Below are positions 5,191 to 31,067 of a stretch of DNA of 54,282 nucleotides, in pieces. Every line of letters begins with the position of its first letter. Position 1 is the first letter of the stretch. Position numbers and translations under genes: made by a program. The DNA is taken from positions 1-54,282 of the forward strand of contig JALWQW010000016.1 in the NCBI GenBank assembly GCA_026982895.1, in the 5' to 3' direction. Below the pieces are notes generated by a model. That model worked only from the letters and a program-made list of their open reading frames with translations. It did no database searches and was not told the origin of the DNA. Source of the stretch: Microcaldota archaeon. GTDB taxonomy: Archaea; Micrarchaeota; Micrarchaeia; Anstonellales; J096.

Positions 5191-6093
5191 CTAACTGTTG
5201 AGGCAGATAGCACCGCATTTGCTCTTTTTGTCAGCCCATAGCTTCCAATCACCATTATCGCCGACTACAGAACAGTTACCAATCACTACATTCAAGCTGC
5301 ACATCGTATGCTTCCCGACATTATTTTCGACTTCATCGCTGCCATTTAAGTTGTCAATACTGTAATTGACCCACTTCCAATCTCGTATGCAGCTGTTATT
5401 TACACATATTTCGTCAGCATCGACTTTGCCTACATTCGTAATATTTTCTCCACCAGCGTCGTTTCCACTGCTAAGCACTCCACCTAGTCCTTCGCCAGTG
5501 GCTCTCCAGCTGCTTATACATCCGTCGTTTAAACAGAGCTCTTTTCCAATCACATGTTCAGCTTCGATGCTATCTCCACTCACATTCTTTGCTCTTATGC
5601 TCTCTGCTTCCAATTTATTTACACCGAGTATGTTTTGTCCACTTGCGTTGTTATTCTCCACAAGGATTTGCCCCAAGCTCGTGCTTTCTGTATTCATCTT
5701 CTCACAGACGACACTGCCATTCCATGTAACGCTTCGTATGGCTTCTCCCTCTTTACACTCTCCTGCAATCCTTAACTGTATCTCGCCGCTCTTCACATCC
5801 GCTCTGCCTATGCTATGATTCTTTATCTCTTCGCTGCCGACACTCTCCTTCTTTATCTTCAAACTGTTAAAATAGCCTTCAACATCGCCGTTAAAGCTTG
5901 TATTCAGTGTTAAGAATCTACTTCTCTTCGCCTTTACAAAATCCGCATAAACTTTTTTGGCATGCACATCGTTGAAGTAAATGCTCCCATTCTTTATCTC
6001 AGCCTGTTTTTTCAATGCGTCTACATACTGGTCTCCAAGACATCCTGCCATCAGTAAAATTCCAACGGCAAGAAAAATAATCGCAACTTTCAT
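5191..6093 (-). CDS. Secreted lipoprotein with an internally duplicated Asn-rich domain
   Basis: 300 residues. The signal peptide MKVAIIFLAVGILLMAGC has lipobox LMAGC. The mature part contains about ten N-X-S/T sequons, so it may be heavily N-glycosylated. An internal duplication is visible: ASGQNILGVNKLEAE with ELCLNDGCISSW matches AGGENITNVGKVDAD with EICVNNSCIRDW. Each unit has a Cys pair spaced by four residues and a final Trp. This alternating G-N-I/G-K-x-x-A pattern resembles the repetitive beta stalks of phage tail fibres and surface spikes. A TTTTTTAACC element about 24 nt upstream lies just past the end of the MEMO gene. The role is unknown; surface display is inferred. Confidence 0.75.
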   Translation of the reverse strand: MKVAIIFLAVGILLMAGCLGDQYVDALKKQAEIKNGSIYFNDVHAKKVYADFVKAKRSRFLTLNTSFNGDVEGYFNSLKIKKESVGSEEIKNHSIGRADVKSGEIQLRIAGECKEGEAIRSVTWNGSVVCEKMNTESTSLGQILVENNNASGQNILGVNKLEAESIRAKNVSGDSIEAEHVIGKELCLNDGCISSWRATGEGLGGVLSSGNDAGGENITNVGKVDADEICVNNSCIRDWKWVNYSIDNLNGSDEVENNVGKHTMCSLNVVIGNCSVVGDNGDWKLWADKKSKCGAICLNS

Positions 6094-24523: not shown

Positions 24524-24535
24524 AGTTTATAAATA
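24524..24535 (+). promoter_or_regulatory. TATA box of the repeat/caspase-like gene
   Basis: AGTTTATAAATA is centred about 25 nt before ATG 24555 with no ribosome-binding site in between, so a leaderless transcript for this single gene is likely. Confidence 0.55.
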
Positions 24536-24554
24536 TTTCTTTTCACAAACATAC

Positions 24555-27500
24555 ATGACACCTGAACCCAAGCCGCCTGAAACCTATAGTAGGAAGATAA
24601 CATCTCAATCACCACAAAGGAAACTAAAAAGTGCTGAGGAGGAGCTTCTCGAGAGAAGCTTCCCCAAGGATTTACCCGGGAAGCTCAAAAGCACCATCAT
24701 AAAAAGAATCCTCCAAAATCTCCCAAAGAATCCAATTCAAAGAGAGGCTGCGTTGGATAAGATCTCCAGAGCGTTTAGTAACCTCCCTTTTAAGAAGGAG
24801 TTAAAAACAGCTGTTTTCAAAGCCCTCACCAATCCAGACATAGCTAAGCTTTTCACAAAAGACCCCGATAAGCTTATATTTTATTTCAAAAAGATAGCAG
24901 AAGCAGCAGACTATTATGCACGTAATGATGCCTTCCAAGCCCTCACAAATCCAAACATAGCCAAGCTATTTACTCAGTACCCAGATAAGTTCGTAGGAAT
25001 AGCACAAGGAGCTGGATGGAACACACCTGATGCCTTCCAAGCCCTCACAATTCCAGAAGTAGCTAAGCTCTTCTCTCAATACCCAGATAAGTTCGTAGGA
25101 ATAGCACAAGGAGCAGGCGATTATACGCATAAAGCCTTCCAAGCCCTCACAAATCCAAACATAGCCAAGCTATTTACTCAGTACCCAGATAAGTTCGTAG
25201 GAATAGCACAAGGAGCTGGATGGAACACACCTGATGCCTTCCAAGCCCTCACAAATCCAAACATAGCCAAGCTCTTCTCTCAATACCCAGACAAGTTCGT
25301 AGAAATAGCTAAAATGGCAAGAAGAGGTACTGATTATGCCTTCCAAGCCCTCACAAATCCAAACATAGCCAAGCTCTTCTCTCAATACCCAGATAAGTTC
25401 GTAGGAATAGCACAAGGAGCTGGATGGAACACACCTGATGCCTTCCAAGCCCTCACAAATCCAAACATAGCCAAGCTCTTCTCTCAATACCCAGACAAGT
25501 TCGTAGAAATAGCTAAAATGGCAAGAAGAGGTACTGATTATGCCTTCCAAGCCCTCACAAATCCAAACATAGCCAAGCTATTTACTCAGTACCCAGATAA
25601 GTTCGTAGGAATAGCACAAGGAGCAGGCTATCATACTGGTAATGCCTTCCAAGCCCTCACAATTCCAGAAGTAGCTAAGCTCTTCTCTCAATACCCCGAT
25701 AAGTTCGTAGGAATAGCACAAGGAGCAGGCTATCATACTGGTAATGCCTTCCAAGCCCTCACAAATCCAAACATAGCTAAACTATTCACAAAAGACCCCG
25801 ATAAGCTCATATTTTATTTCAAAAAGATAGCAGAAGCAGTAGGCGATTATACTGGTAATGCCTTCCAAGCCCTCACAAATCCAAACATAGCTAAACTATT
25901 CACAAAAGACCCCGATAAGCTTATCTTCTATTTCAAAAAAGTAATTAAAGTAGCAAAAAAGGGTGCATATTATACCTTCAAATCCCTCGCAATTCCAGAC
26001 ATAGCTAAACTATTCACAAAAGACCCCGATAAGCTTATTTCCTATTTCAAAAAGATAGCAGAAGTAGGTAGAAAAAGTGCGTATTATACCTACCCAATCC
26101 ACCCAGATATGATGATGGGTGCATATTATACCTTCAAATCCCTCGCAATTCCAGACATAGCTAAACTTTTCATTAAAGACCCCGATAAGCTTATCTTCTA
26201 TTTCAAAAAAGTAATTAAAGTAGCAAAAAAGGGTGCATATTATACCTTCAAATCCCTCGCAATTCCAGAAGTAGCTAAACTCTTCATTAAGTATGCCAAA
26301 GGAGAGATAAAACCAATATCGTTTTACGCTCCTTTAATAGGAAGCACGTATAGCTATGCTATAGAGCTTGGTCGGCCTTTAGATGATTTACACGATAGGC
26401 CAAAGAAGAGAATAAAATACTTGAACTCCTTAAAGGATTATGAAGTATTGGGCTTATTACTATCAAACCCATCTCTCTTCTATACCTCTACTAACCATCT
26501 GCTATTTGATAGATTACAGAGAAATCTCAGAGGGAAGAAACTTACAACCTATTTGAAAGAGTTAGGCATATGGGATAATACGCCGCTAATGCTTAATCTC
26601 TTATTTAGAGCAGCAAACTATGGCAGACTATTTGGAGGTTCAAAGCCCTTATTCAAGCCATCTGAAAGCAAAGAGGTTCTAGATCTAATGTTTGAGCCTC
26701 TCCACTCACAGAAATTTGACTCAAAATACTATTATCTCCTAGCCAACACAATTGAAAACCTTACTTACATTAAGAGAAGTAGCTCCATCTTACCCTATAT
26801 TGAAAAAGTGCTAAAAGATGAATTGTCAAAGTCCAAAGGAGCAAAGAAGGAGGCTATTTCTTATCTTCTAAGGTTCGTAGAAGACCCCAACATGAGAAAA
26901 GAAACAGAATTAAACCTAAAAAAATTCACTGACAACGGTAAGCTAACCATTGTTCAAGTTTTCAAGGAAGGGGATACTACTGGAAAAGGTTCCGATCATT
27001 GGCATTTAACTATTAAAGACTTTACTAAAAGTTGGATGCATAACAAAGTAATAAAAATAGATGACAAAAATTACAAGATAGAAACAAAGGATTTCATCAT
27101 GCTACTTCATTTAGGGGACAGTGAAAACAACGAGAAATACACTCAAGAGGTCCTAAAGAAATACAAAAATGTAATACTCACGTTTAGAGGGCACAGCTAC
27201 AGCTTGGAAAGCAGCATACCTACAGATATTTTCAAAAATAAAAACAGCGGACATGTCCTTTTCATTCCAGGAAGCTGTGGAAGTGCTGGTTCTATACCTC
27301 TATACTTATCAAACGCTAATCCAAAACTTGACATCACATTCATTGCTAATACATCTACAGGAAGAGGTCAAGTAACAAACGCTTTACTCTATTATATGAT
27401 CAAGCTTTACAAGCAGGGATGGCATGGACCTTTCAGAGAATTGGTGAGTAGATATGCAGCTGAATCTATTAACCTTCAAGGTGGGGATCCAGCCACATTG

Positions 27501-27575
27501 AAGTACAATAGCTTAGGAGAGAGGCTAATTTCTGAGCTTAATAAAGTTAATGTGCTTAATTCCTTCAATCAATGA
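24555..27575 (+). CDS. Giant helical-repeat protein with a caspase-like C-terminal domain
   Basis: 1006 residues, cytoplasmic (no signal peptide or TM). A charged N-terminal region (1-85) precedes about 14 tandem repeats (about 86-590) of 34-38 residues. Core positions are AFQALTNPxIAKLFxxxPDKxxxxxxxA, suggesting two short helices per unit, HEAT- or ALF-like. Residues about 590-790 are helical without repeats. The last 200 residues resemble clan CD cysteine peptidases (caspase, gingipain, CHAT): ILTFRGHSY with His880, then strand VLFIPGSCGSAG with Cys908, then ITFIANTS. This suggests a repeat-sensor plus protease, as in defence or cell-death proteins. Codon choice (ACA, ATA, AAA) differs from flanking housekeeping genes, and it stands alone between MFS and ValRS, so acquisition is likely. 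Peptidase activity is inferred. Confidence 0.75.
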   Translation: MTPEPKPPETYSRKITSQSPQRKLKSAEEELLERSFPKDLPGKLKSTIIKRILQNLPKNPIQREAALDKISRAFSNLPFKKELKTAVFKALTNPDIAKLFTKDPDKLIFYFKKIAEAADYYARNDAFQALTNPNIAKLFTQYPDKFVGIAQGAGWNTPDAFQALTIPEVAKLFSQYPDKFVGIAQGAGDYTHKAFQALTNPNIAKLFTQYPDKFVGIAQGAGWNTPDAFQALTNPNIAKLFSQYPDKFVEIAKMARRGTDYAFQALTNPNIAKLFSQYPDKFVGIAQGAGWNTPDAFQALTNPNIAKLFSQYPDKFVEIAKMARRGTDYAFQALTNPNIAKLFTQYPDKFVGIAQGAGYHTGNAFQALTIPEVAKLFSQYPDKFVGIAQGAGYHTGNAFQALTNPNIAKLFTKDPDKLIFYFKKIAEAVGDYTGNAFQALTNPNIAKLFTKDPDKLIFYFKKVIKVAKKGAYYTFKSLAIPDIAKLFTKDPDKLISYFKKIAEVGRKSAYYTYPIHPDMMMGAYYTFKSLAIPDIAKLFIKDPDKLIFYFKKVIKVAKKGAYYTFKSLAIPEVAKLFIKYAKGEIKPISFYAPLIGSTYSYAIELGRPLDDLHDRPKKRIKYLNSLKDYEVLGLLLSNPSLFYTSTNHLLFDRLQRNLRGKKLTTYLKELGIWDNTPLMLNLLFRAANYGRLFGGSKPLFKPSESKEVLDLMFEPLHSQKFDSKYYYLLANTIENLTYIKRSSSILPYIEKVLKDELSKSKGAKKEAISYLLRFVEDPNMRKETELNLKKFTDNGKLTIVQVFKEGDTTGKGSDHWHLTIKDFTKSWMHNKVIKIDDKNYKIETKDFIMLLHLGDSENNEKYTQEVLKKYKNVILTFRGHSYSLESSIPTDIFKNKNSGHVLFIPGSCGSAGSIPLYLSNANPKLDITFIANTSTGRGQVTNALLYYMIKLYKQGWHGPFRELVSRYAAESINLQGGDPATLKYNSLGERLISELNKVNVLNSFNQ
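24810..26330 (+). repeat. Coding tandem repeats, 102-114 bp period, recently expanded
   Basis: About 14 units. The inner block (about 24930-25750) has units of exactly 102 bp (34 codons) that are nearly identical at the nucleotide level, including silent positions. A two-unit, 204-bp module (ending EIAKMARRGTDY, then IAQGAGWNTPD) is duplicated in tandem. Outer units are 38 codons and more diverged (PDKLIFYFKKI). Near-identity inside and divergence outside indicate repeated unequal crossing-over in the centre. Copy number probably varies between strains. Confidence 0.9.
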
Positions 27576-30676: not shown

Positions 30677-30719
30677 TTAGGGGGCTTTTATAGATAGTAA
30701 TCCCATGAGGTGGGCAAAA

Positions 30720-31067
30720 GTGAACATGAAAATCTTTGGTTTGTTTGTACTGTTGCTAGCTGCTTCGTTTGTAGTAGCAGCTGATGCGACACCAACCGAT
30801 ACAGGACAGAGAATCAGTGGAGCGCTATGCCAGCTCTATGATTTAATGAAGAATATCTTTCCGCCATTAATAGTGCTCGTCGTAGTTATGGCTGCTGTTA
30901 TATACGCTGCTGGTCATGTCCTTGGCCAGGAGATGGGCGCTAGGGCGAAGAGCTGGGCTCTGAACCTTATCATCTACACTACTATTGGTATAATCATATT
31001 CCTTCTCGTGCCTTGGCTACTTGGGCAGGTTGTGCCTGAGCTGAATTTAGAAGAGGCATGTGGATGA
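30720..31067 (+). CDS. VirB2/TrbC-like two-TM pilin, copy 1
   Basis: 115 residues from GTG 30720, with AGGTGG 7 nt upstream; ATG 30726 is possible, and ATG 30705 would lie before the ribosome-binding site. A signal peptide (FGLFVLLLAASFVVAA) is followed by a Cys-containing segment (GALCQLYDLMKNIFPP), then two helices (LIVLVVVMAAVIYAAGHVLG; LIIYTTIGIIIFLLVPWLLG) with a small basic loop (GARAKSW) between. This is the topology of VirB2/TrbC conjugative pilins and of similar small DPANN proteins. The last residues contain another Cys (EEACG), possibly pairing with the first. The paralogue follows after 10 nt. Confidence 0.75.
   Translation: MNMKIFGLFVLLLAASFVVAADATPTDTGQRISGALCQLYDLMKNIFPPLIVLVVVMAAVIYAAGHVLGQEMGARAKSWALNLIIYTTIGIIIFLLVPWLLGQVVPELNLEEACG

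Follow-up and report, generated by a model that had tools for sequence, protein, structure and literature searches.

The analysis points to a single gene through which a member of the Micrarchaeota may couple recognition of a partner to the action of a damaging enzyme. The product is a protein of 1006 residues that joins an N-terminal tag, an array of 14 repeats, a helical linker and a C-terminal alpha/beta domain bearing a conserved His/Cys pair. We place at about even chances the reading that this is a one-gene sensor-effector, in which a solenoid switches a hydrolase with a catalytic cysteine, most probably a protease of the caspase fold acting through His880 and Cys908, the outcome being arrest or death of the cell or the disabling of an intruder. 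The architecture, the conserved dyad, the predicted succession of structural elements, the use of these repeats with other C-terminal domains and the near-identity of the repeats within the protein are observed; proteolysis, sensing by the repeats, the switch and a role in conflict or cell death are inferred. In the proposed course of events, the repeat solenoid would recognise a partner, which may be a protein that belongs to an invader, to another cell (a competitor or a host) or to the archaeon's own cell, and the helical linker would couple this recognition to the C-terminal domain. Before the solenoid binds its partner the protease would be inactive; once released, it would cut its target, with the result that the cell is stopped or killed or the intruder disabled. 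If correct, this would add an undescribed protease-like family in a lineage that seldom or never matches the classical models for caspases and CHAT, and would imply that minimal symbiotic archaea keep and reshape a modular repertoire of repeat sensors and effectors.

The gene and its repeat array

The window, by which we mean the whole stretch of 54,282 nucleotides that was analysed, is contig 16 of the genome of a Micrarchaeota (DPANN) archaeon, an assembly of 1.01 Mb that is 88% complete. The gene (24555..27575, + strand, ATG start) stands alone between genes for an MFS transporter and valS, and its 3' side is T-rich. A TATA-box-like element, TTTATAAATAT (24526..24536, + strand), can be read about 24 bases upstream of the ATG; its position is compatible with a putative leaderless archaeal promoter, and the transcript is probably leaderless. 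The solitary gene with its own TATA box that the preliminary description had reported is thus borne out, whereas its statement that the gene interrupts housekeeping genes finds no support in these neighbours. Insertion between housekeeping genes was likewise set aside, since in a sister species (ValS 78% identical) none of the tested window neighbours lies near valS, and with gene order around valS not conserved no empty site can be defined. Across the loci compared, no gene recurs beside members of the family. Two genes past the repeat protein, positions 30705-31067 encode a protein of 120 residues with a weak match to TrbC/VirB2-type pilins (E 1e-5, which narrowly misses the Pfam cut-off).

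The codon use that had been described as differing from that of the neighbours proves to be an artefact of the repeats. Only the repeat block stands out, because its codons are used again in each of the 14 repeats; taken as a whole, the gene is ordinary, at rank 16 in a comparison of genes and segments, and its C-terminal part lies lower still. With the deviation confined to the repeats, an origin as foreign DNA was rejected as an interpretation of codon use, and so was a virus or plasmid origin, given that a phage set, a plasmid set and two viral-contig scans all lacked a match. The gene tree that includes the window member is poorly resolved, with long branches, and does not place it.

The protein begins with a basic tag of 26 residues (MTPEPKPPETYSRKITSQSPQRKLKS..., 24555..24642, + strand), followed by an N-terminal helical part that precedes the repeats; by hydropathy, no signal or membrane segment was found at this N-terminus. 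The 88 bases of the tag are 93% identical in DNA to the start (5549-5636) of a repeat-only paralogue of 525 residues in the same genome (G000:C6, L133 4062-5636), and DNA similarity between the two genes is limited to these bases, such that the tag may perhaps have come to be common to both by gene conversion. A recurrent start, M(F/L)(I/V)F(Q/H), was also noted in members of the RGHS type (L031, L033, L036, L037, L044) and of the HG/SC type (L142, L144) described below.

The array itself (24813..26348, + strand) was delimited by counting anchors, by TRF, which places it at 24925-26247, and by comparison of the units. Its 14 anchors agree with the approximately 14 helical repeats recorded previously and mark two-helix units with the consensus AFQALTNPNIAKLFxxYPDKFVGIAQGAGxxTxx. 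In order, there is one unit of 39 residues, eight of 34, four of 38, 38, 52 and 38, and a last, partial one. The eight 34-residue units have a mean protein identity of 80%, and a stretch of 100 residues is 96% identical to itself when shifted by 68 residues (two units), which indicates that duplication or homogenisation of the array is recent. Positions 30, 31, 33 and 34 of this unit are the most variable, each with four codons and every change altering the residue, and roughly half of the 34 are encoded by a single codon throughout; an overall pN/pS of 0.49 between units gives no support for positive selection. Across the family, the N-terminal repeats vary in number and sequence. Matches of the whole protein to the Pfam families XPC-binding and HP1451_C were discarded as repeat artefacts, as no single stretch passes, and a role of the array as target of a diversity-generating retroelement was discarded because the genome that contains the window (88% complete) lacks an RVT_1 match.

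The C-terminal domain and its predicted fold

Downstream of the array lies a conserved helical linker domain (...LGRPLDDLHD...FYTSTNHLLFDRL...LFRAANYGRLFG..., 26352..26912, + strand), in which a P, a T and two N residues are invariant in an alignment of 20 members. The linker thus accompanies the catalytic domain as a single unit. The C-terminal alpha/beta domain (26913..27572, + strand), a putative cysteine peptidase, carries His880 in RGHS (codon 27192..27194, + strand) at the end of predicted strand beta-3 and Cys908 in GSCGS (codon 27276..27278, + strand) after predicted strand beta-4, where the earlier reading of RGHSY and PGSCGSAG had placed them. All 20 aligned members keep RGHS and G-x-C-x-S unchanged, even though their identity with the window protein is 24-43%, and conservation of this degree, judged from these sequences, exceeds chance; the two residues that the preliminary description had singled out are therefore conserved among homologues. 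The His is preceded by Gly and followed by Ser in every aligned member, with a His-Cys spacing of 27-30 residues in all that are intact. Among 27 domain sequences, three tandem copies have lost the His to Asp and one sequence is cut off before the Cys.

AlphaFold2 models were built with 16 sequences for the linker plus domain (pLDDT 86.2, pTM 0.88) and for the domain alone (pLDDT 84.7, pTM 0.84). In domain numbering, where His94 and Cys122 correspond to His880 and Cys908, the predicted elements run beta1 (10-18), alpha1 (29-40), a hairpin (46-57), beta2 (61-68), alpha2 (70-83), beta3 (86-92), His94, alpha3 (95-101), beta4 (114-119), Cys122, alpha4 (128-134), beta5 (140-146) and alpha5 (153-167), followed by a helix (174-188), beta6 (196-199) and a final helix (201-219). 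The caspase fold has been defined by its order of strands and helices, with the His at the C-terminal end of beta3 and the Cys at that of beta4 (PMC4357240). Both models follow this order, with five predicted helices alpha1-alpha5 and one hairpin inserted before beta2, and many of the invariant residues would sit in the loops after beta3, beta4 and beta5, as expected of an active site. The predicted order of secondary-structure elements is thus that of a caspase, the fold anticipated in the preliminary description. In clan CD the sheet has six strands in the order 2-1-3-4-5-6 with strand 6 antiparallel; the predicted strands of the models follow one another along the chain in the matching order.

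Sequence comparisons gave no match of weight in Pfam, NCBIfam, PADLOC, PHROG or the PDB, and no family member has significant similarity to any peptidase profile. PADLOC returned one stray member match to each of two models (E 0.005-0.01) and nothing more. None of the 20 members exceeds the Pfam cut-off for CHAT (PF12770) or Peptidase_C14 (PF00656); Among 118 relatives none matches Pfam CHAT, and 3 of 196 phylum genomes contain C14, the window's genome not being one of them. Foldseek with the linker plus domain retrieved caspase-4, -1 and -11, weakly (E 0.016-0.11, target TM-score 0.37-0.44). The earlier comparison with clan CD is supported by the order of His and Cys and by the predicted order of elements; no sequence method ties the domain to known clan CD peptidases and Foldseek does so weakly, so that "caspase-like" describes the predicted topology together with the dyad. 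Accordingly, we do not file the domain in clan CD and describe it as a predicted alpha/beta Cys/His domain that appears to have caspase-like topology.

Exchanged C-termini, tandem pairs and distribution

Searches with the repeats alone, followed by reading of the matched proteins, revealed that the same repeats carry other C-termini. A second type (A5), with the HG and SC motifs of GGHGT...SCSTG, is present in G031 at seven tandem places (G031:C25, L131 2231-16529) and at an eighth about 50 kb away (a paralogue at L132 4728-6818), and also in G039, G049 and G074. Against a solved CHAT domain the A5 profile gives E 0.01, with His and Cys aligned, and against a DUF4347 protein E 0.0024. Under several settings, hhalign did not demonstrate homology between the A5 domain and that of the window protein, the score not rising above a reversed control. 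The HG/SC caspase-like domain was observed in 32 of 245 phylum genomes. Yet another C-terminus on the same repeats contains PNFxAAxxFQEG (L140 3959-5644 in G005; L146 4079-5911 in G046), a stretch that by eye is lysozyme/transglycosylase-like and has no Pfam match, and repeat-only proteins exist as well, among them the paralogue in the window's own genome. That the same repeats bear the HG/SC domain and other C-termini argues for a modular sensor-effector family; the combination of a constant recognition part with exchanged effectors is the strongest evidence for the sensor-effector reading.

In three genomes, an intact RGHS copy lies directly downstream, on the same strand, of a copy in which the His has become Asp (RGD/RAD) with the Cys kept: G010 (L043 9670-13522, gap of 58 bases), G014 (L042 5008-8976, gap of 12 bases) and G079 (L045 7638-11382). 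The window gene has no such partner. Pseudo-enzymes also occur among the orthocaspases, where His and Cys are replaced by Tyr and Ser (PMC6426788). The upstream, His-less tandem copies have a signal-peptide-like N-terminus; such N-termini or a TM segment are found in G079a, G079c, G081 and the upstream copies of G010 and G014. Most of the complete members, like the window protein, have no signal peptide. Because some relatives have signal peptides or a membrane anchor, not every member of the family can be explained by action inside the cell alone.

The RGHS/GSC family is patchily distributed. An alignment-based search with the last ~400 residues found homologues in 20 of 302 Micrarchaeota genomes, and the C-terminal 261 residues have homologues in 19 genomes among 147 relatives, none of them in the window's genus or family beyond its own genome. 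The family is missing from all nine other sampled genomes of that taxonomic family and is present in scattered others. When 85,462 GTDB species were scanned for both core motifs, 15 relatives emerged, 14 of which are labelled Micrarchaeota or uncultured archaeon and one Candidatus ainarchaeum; outside Micrarchaeota, phage, plasmid and viral collections (two viral-contig scans) contained none. Among open-licence papers, we found none on caspase-like proteins of Micrarchaeota.

Proposed role and competing readings

The preliminary description had proposed a sensor-protease of the kind seen in defence or programmed death. For the sensor-effector reading we also count the invariant dyad, the predicted caspase order of elements, the patchy occurrence of the family, the homogenised repeats with variation centred on four positions, which resemble those of fungal NLR sensors (PMC4986451), and the lack of an N-terminal signal or membrane segment in the window protein. 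The alternative C-termini on the same repeats, one of them CHAT-like, favor this proposal, while the defence part of it has no support from gene neighbourhoods: in the comparison with known anti-phage systems there was no PADLOC match of weight, and no defence neighbours were shared. As to role, the strongest rival is an exported or surface effector resembling polymorphic toxins, whose repeat stalk would bind a neighbouring or host archaeon and whose C-terminal enzyme would cut surface or internal proteins. Micrarchaeota are believed to live in attachment to other archaeal cells, which we counted in favor of this rival along with the signal-peptide-like N-termini and TM segment of the relatives named above and the swapping of C-termini on the same repeats, two of them with the lysozyme-like stretch. 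A DPANN relative is host-dependent (PMC6642349). We nevertheless consider export unlikely, as neither the window protein nor most complete members have a signal peptide, no immunity-type gene adjoins, and the lysozyme-like reading is without Pfam support. Far less probable is a housekeeping protease regulated in the manner of separase, with a solenoid and a caspase-like domain devoted to one cellular substrate. Separase has a repeat solenoid. A caspase-like domain forms the C-terminal part of this large protein (PMC4626109), which we counted in favor of this reading; a housekeeping role sits poorly with a family found in so few of the 302 Micrarchaeota genomes and missing from the rest of the window's own family, and with repeats that are homogenised within a protein and divergent between members.

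As to chemistry, the strongest rival is a non-proteolytic Cys/His enzyme, a Rossmann-like or Arf-like alpha/beta domain in which Cys and His would serve acyl transfer, deamidation or metal binding. Foldseek with the isolated domain places Arf-family GTPases first (E 1.2e-4 to 1e-3), with no caspase among the best 50 matches, and the inserted hairpin presumably resembles the Arf beta2-beta3 hairpin; the lack of significant similarity to peptidase profiles and the Ser after the His point the same way. The TM-scores to Arf are, however, only ~0.3-0.5, and the core order of elements is one that Arf and caspase folds have in common. Moreover, the Walker A motif [AG]xxxxGK[ST] is absent after beta1 in all 27 domain sequences, which led us to reject an Arf/Ras-like P-loop GTPase, and the invariant residues are a His and a Cys that end successive strands. 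We regard a non-peptidase as quite unlikely and retain a caspase-fold protease as the preferred reading.

A bolder form of the sensor-effector reading, which we rate as rather unlikely, would make the family an NTPase-free Micrarchaeota counterpart of the NLR receptors. Homogenised and rapidly reshuffled solenoid repeats would be combined with interchangeable killing domains, including a new RGHS/GSCGS caspase-fold protease family with His-to-Asp signal-peptide tandem partners, for self/non-self or virus recognition. The fungal NLRs HET-D/E/R (PMC4986451) likewise have near-identical internal repeats varying at few positions and exchangeable effectors; the window protein differs in being archaeal, in having its putative effector at the C-terminus and in lacking a NACHT/NB-ARC switch.

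The nearest likeness in chemistry is to the clan CD peptidases (C14, C11, C13, C25, C80, separase), with which the modelled domain has in common the order of His then Cys, sites after beta3 and beta4, and the order and number of helices and strands. It differs from them in its lack of detectable sequence similarity, its weak Foldseek matches, the extra hairpin before beta2 and the short His-Cys spacing of the family, and where caspase-7 has His144-Gly145 the family has His-Ser. In architecture, the window protein resembles TPR-CHAT/Csx29 of type III-E CRISPR (PMC10028731), a partner-activated protein with a helical-repeat solenoid and a C-terminal caspase-like protease, though it has different repeats, no CHAT match and no CRISPR effector gene among the scanned neighbours. 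The A5 HG/SC type, weakly CHAT/DUF4347-like, has the same repeats, phylum, C-terminal position and dyad order. Finally, the SPEARE proteins of Nanohaloarchaeota (PMC6642349) are, like this family with its putative protease, lineage-specific protease-bearing proteins of DPANN archaea; they are membrane-anchored serine proteases of thousands of residues with laminin-G adhesion domains.
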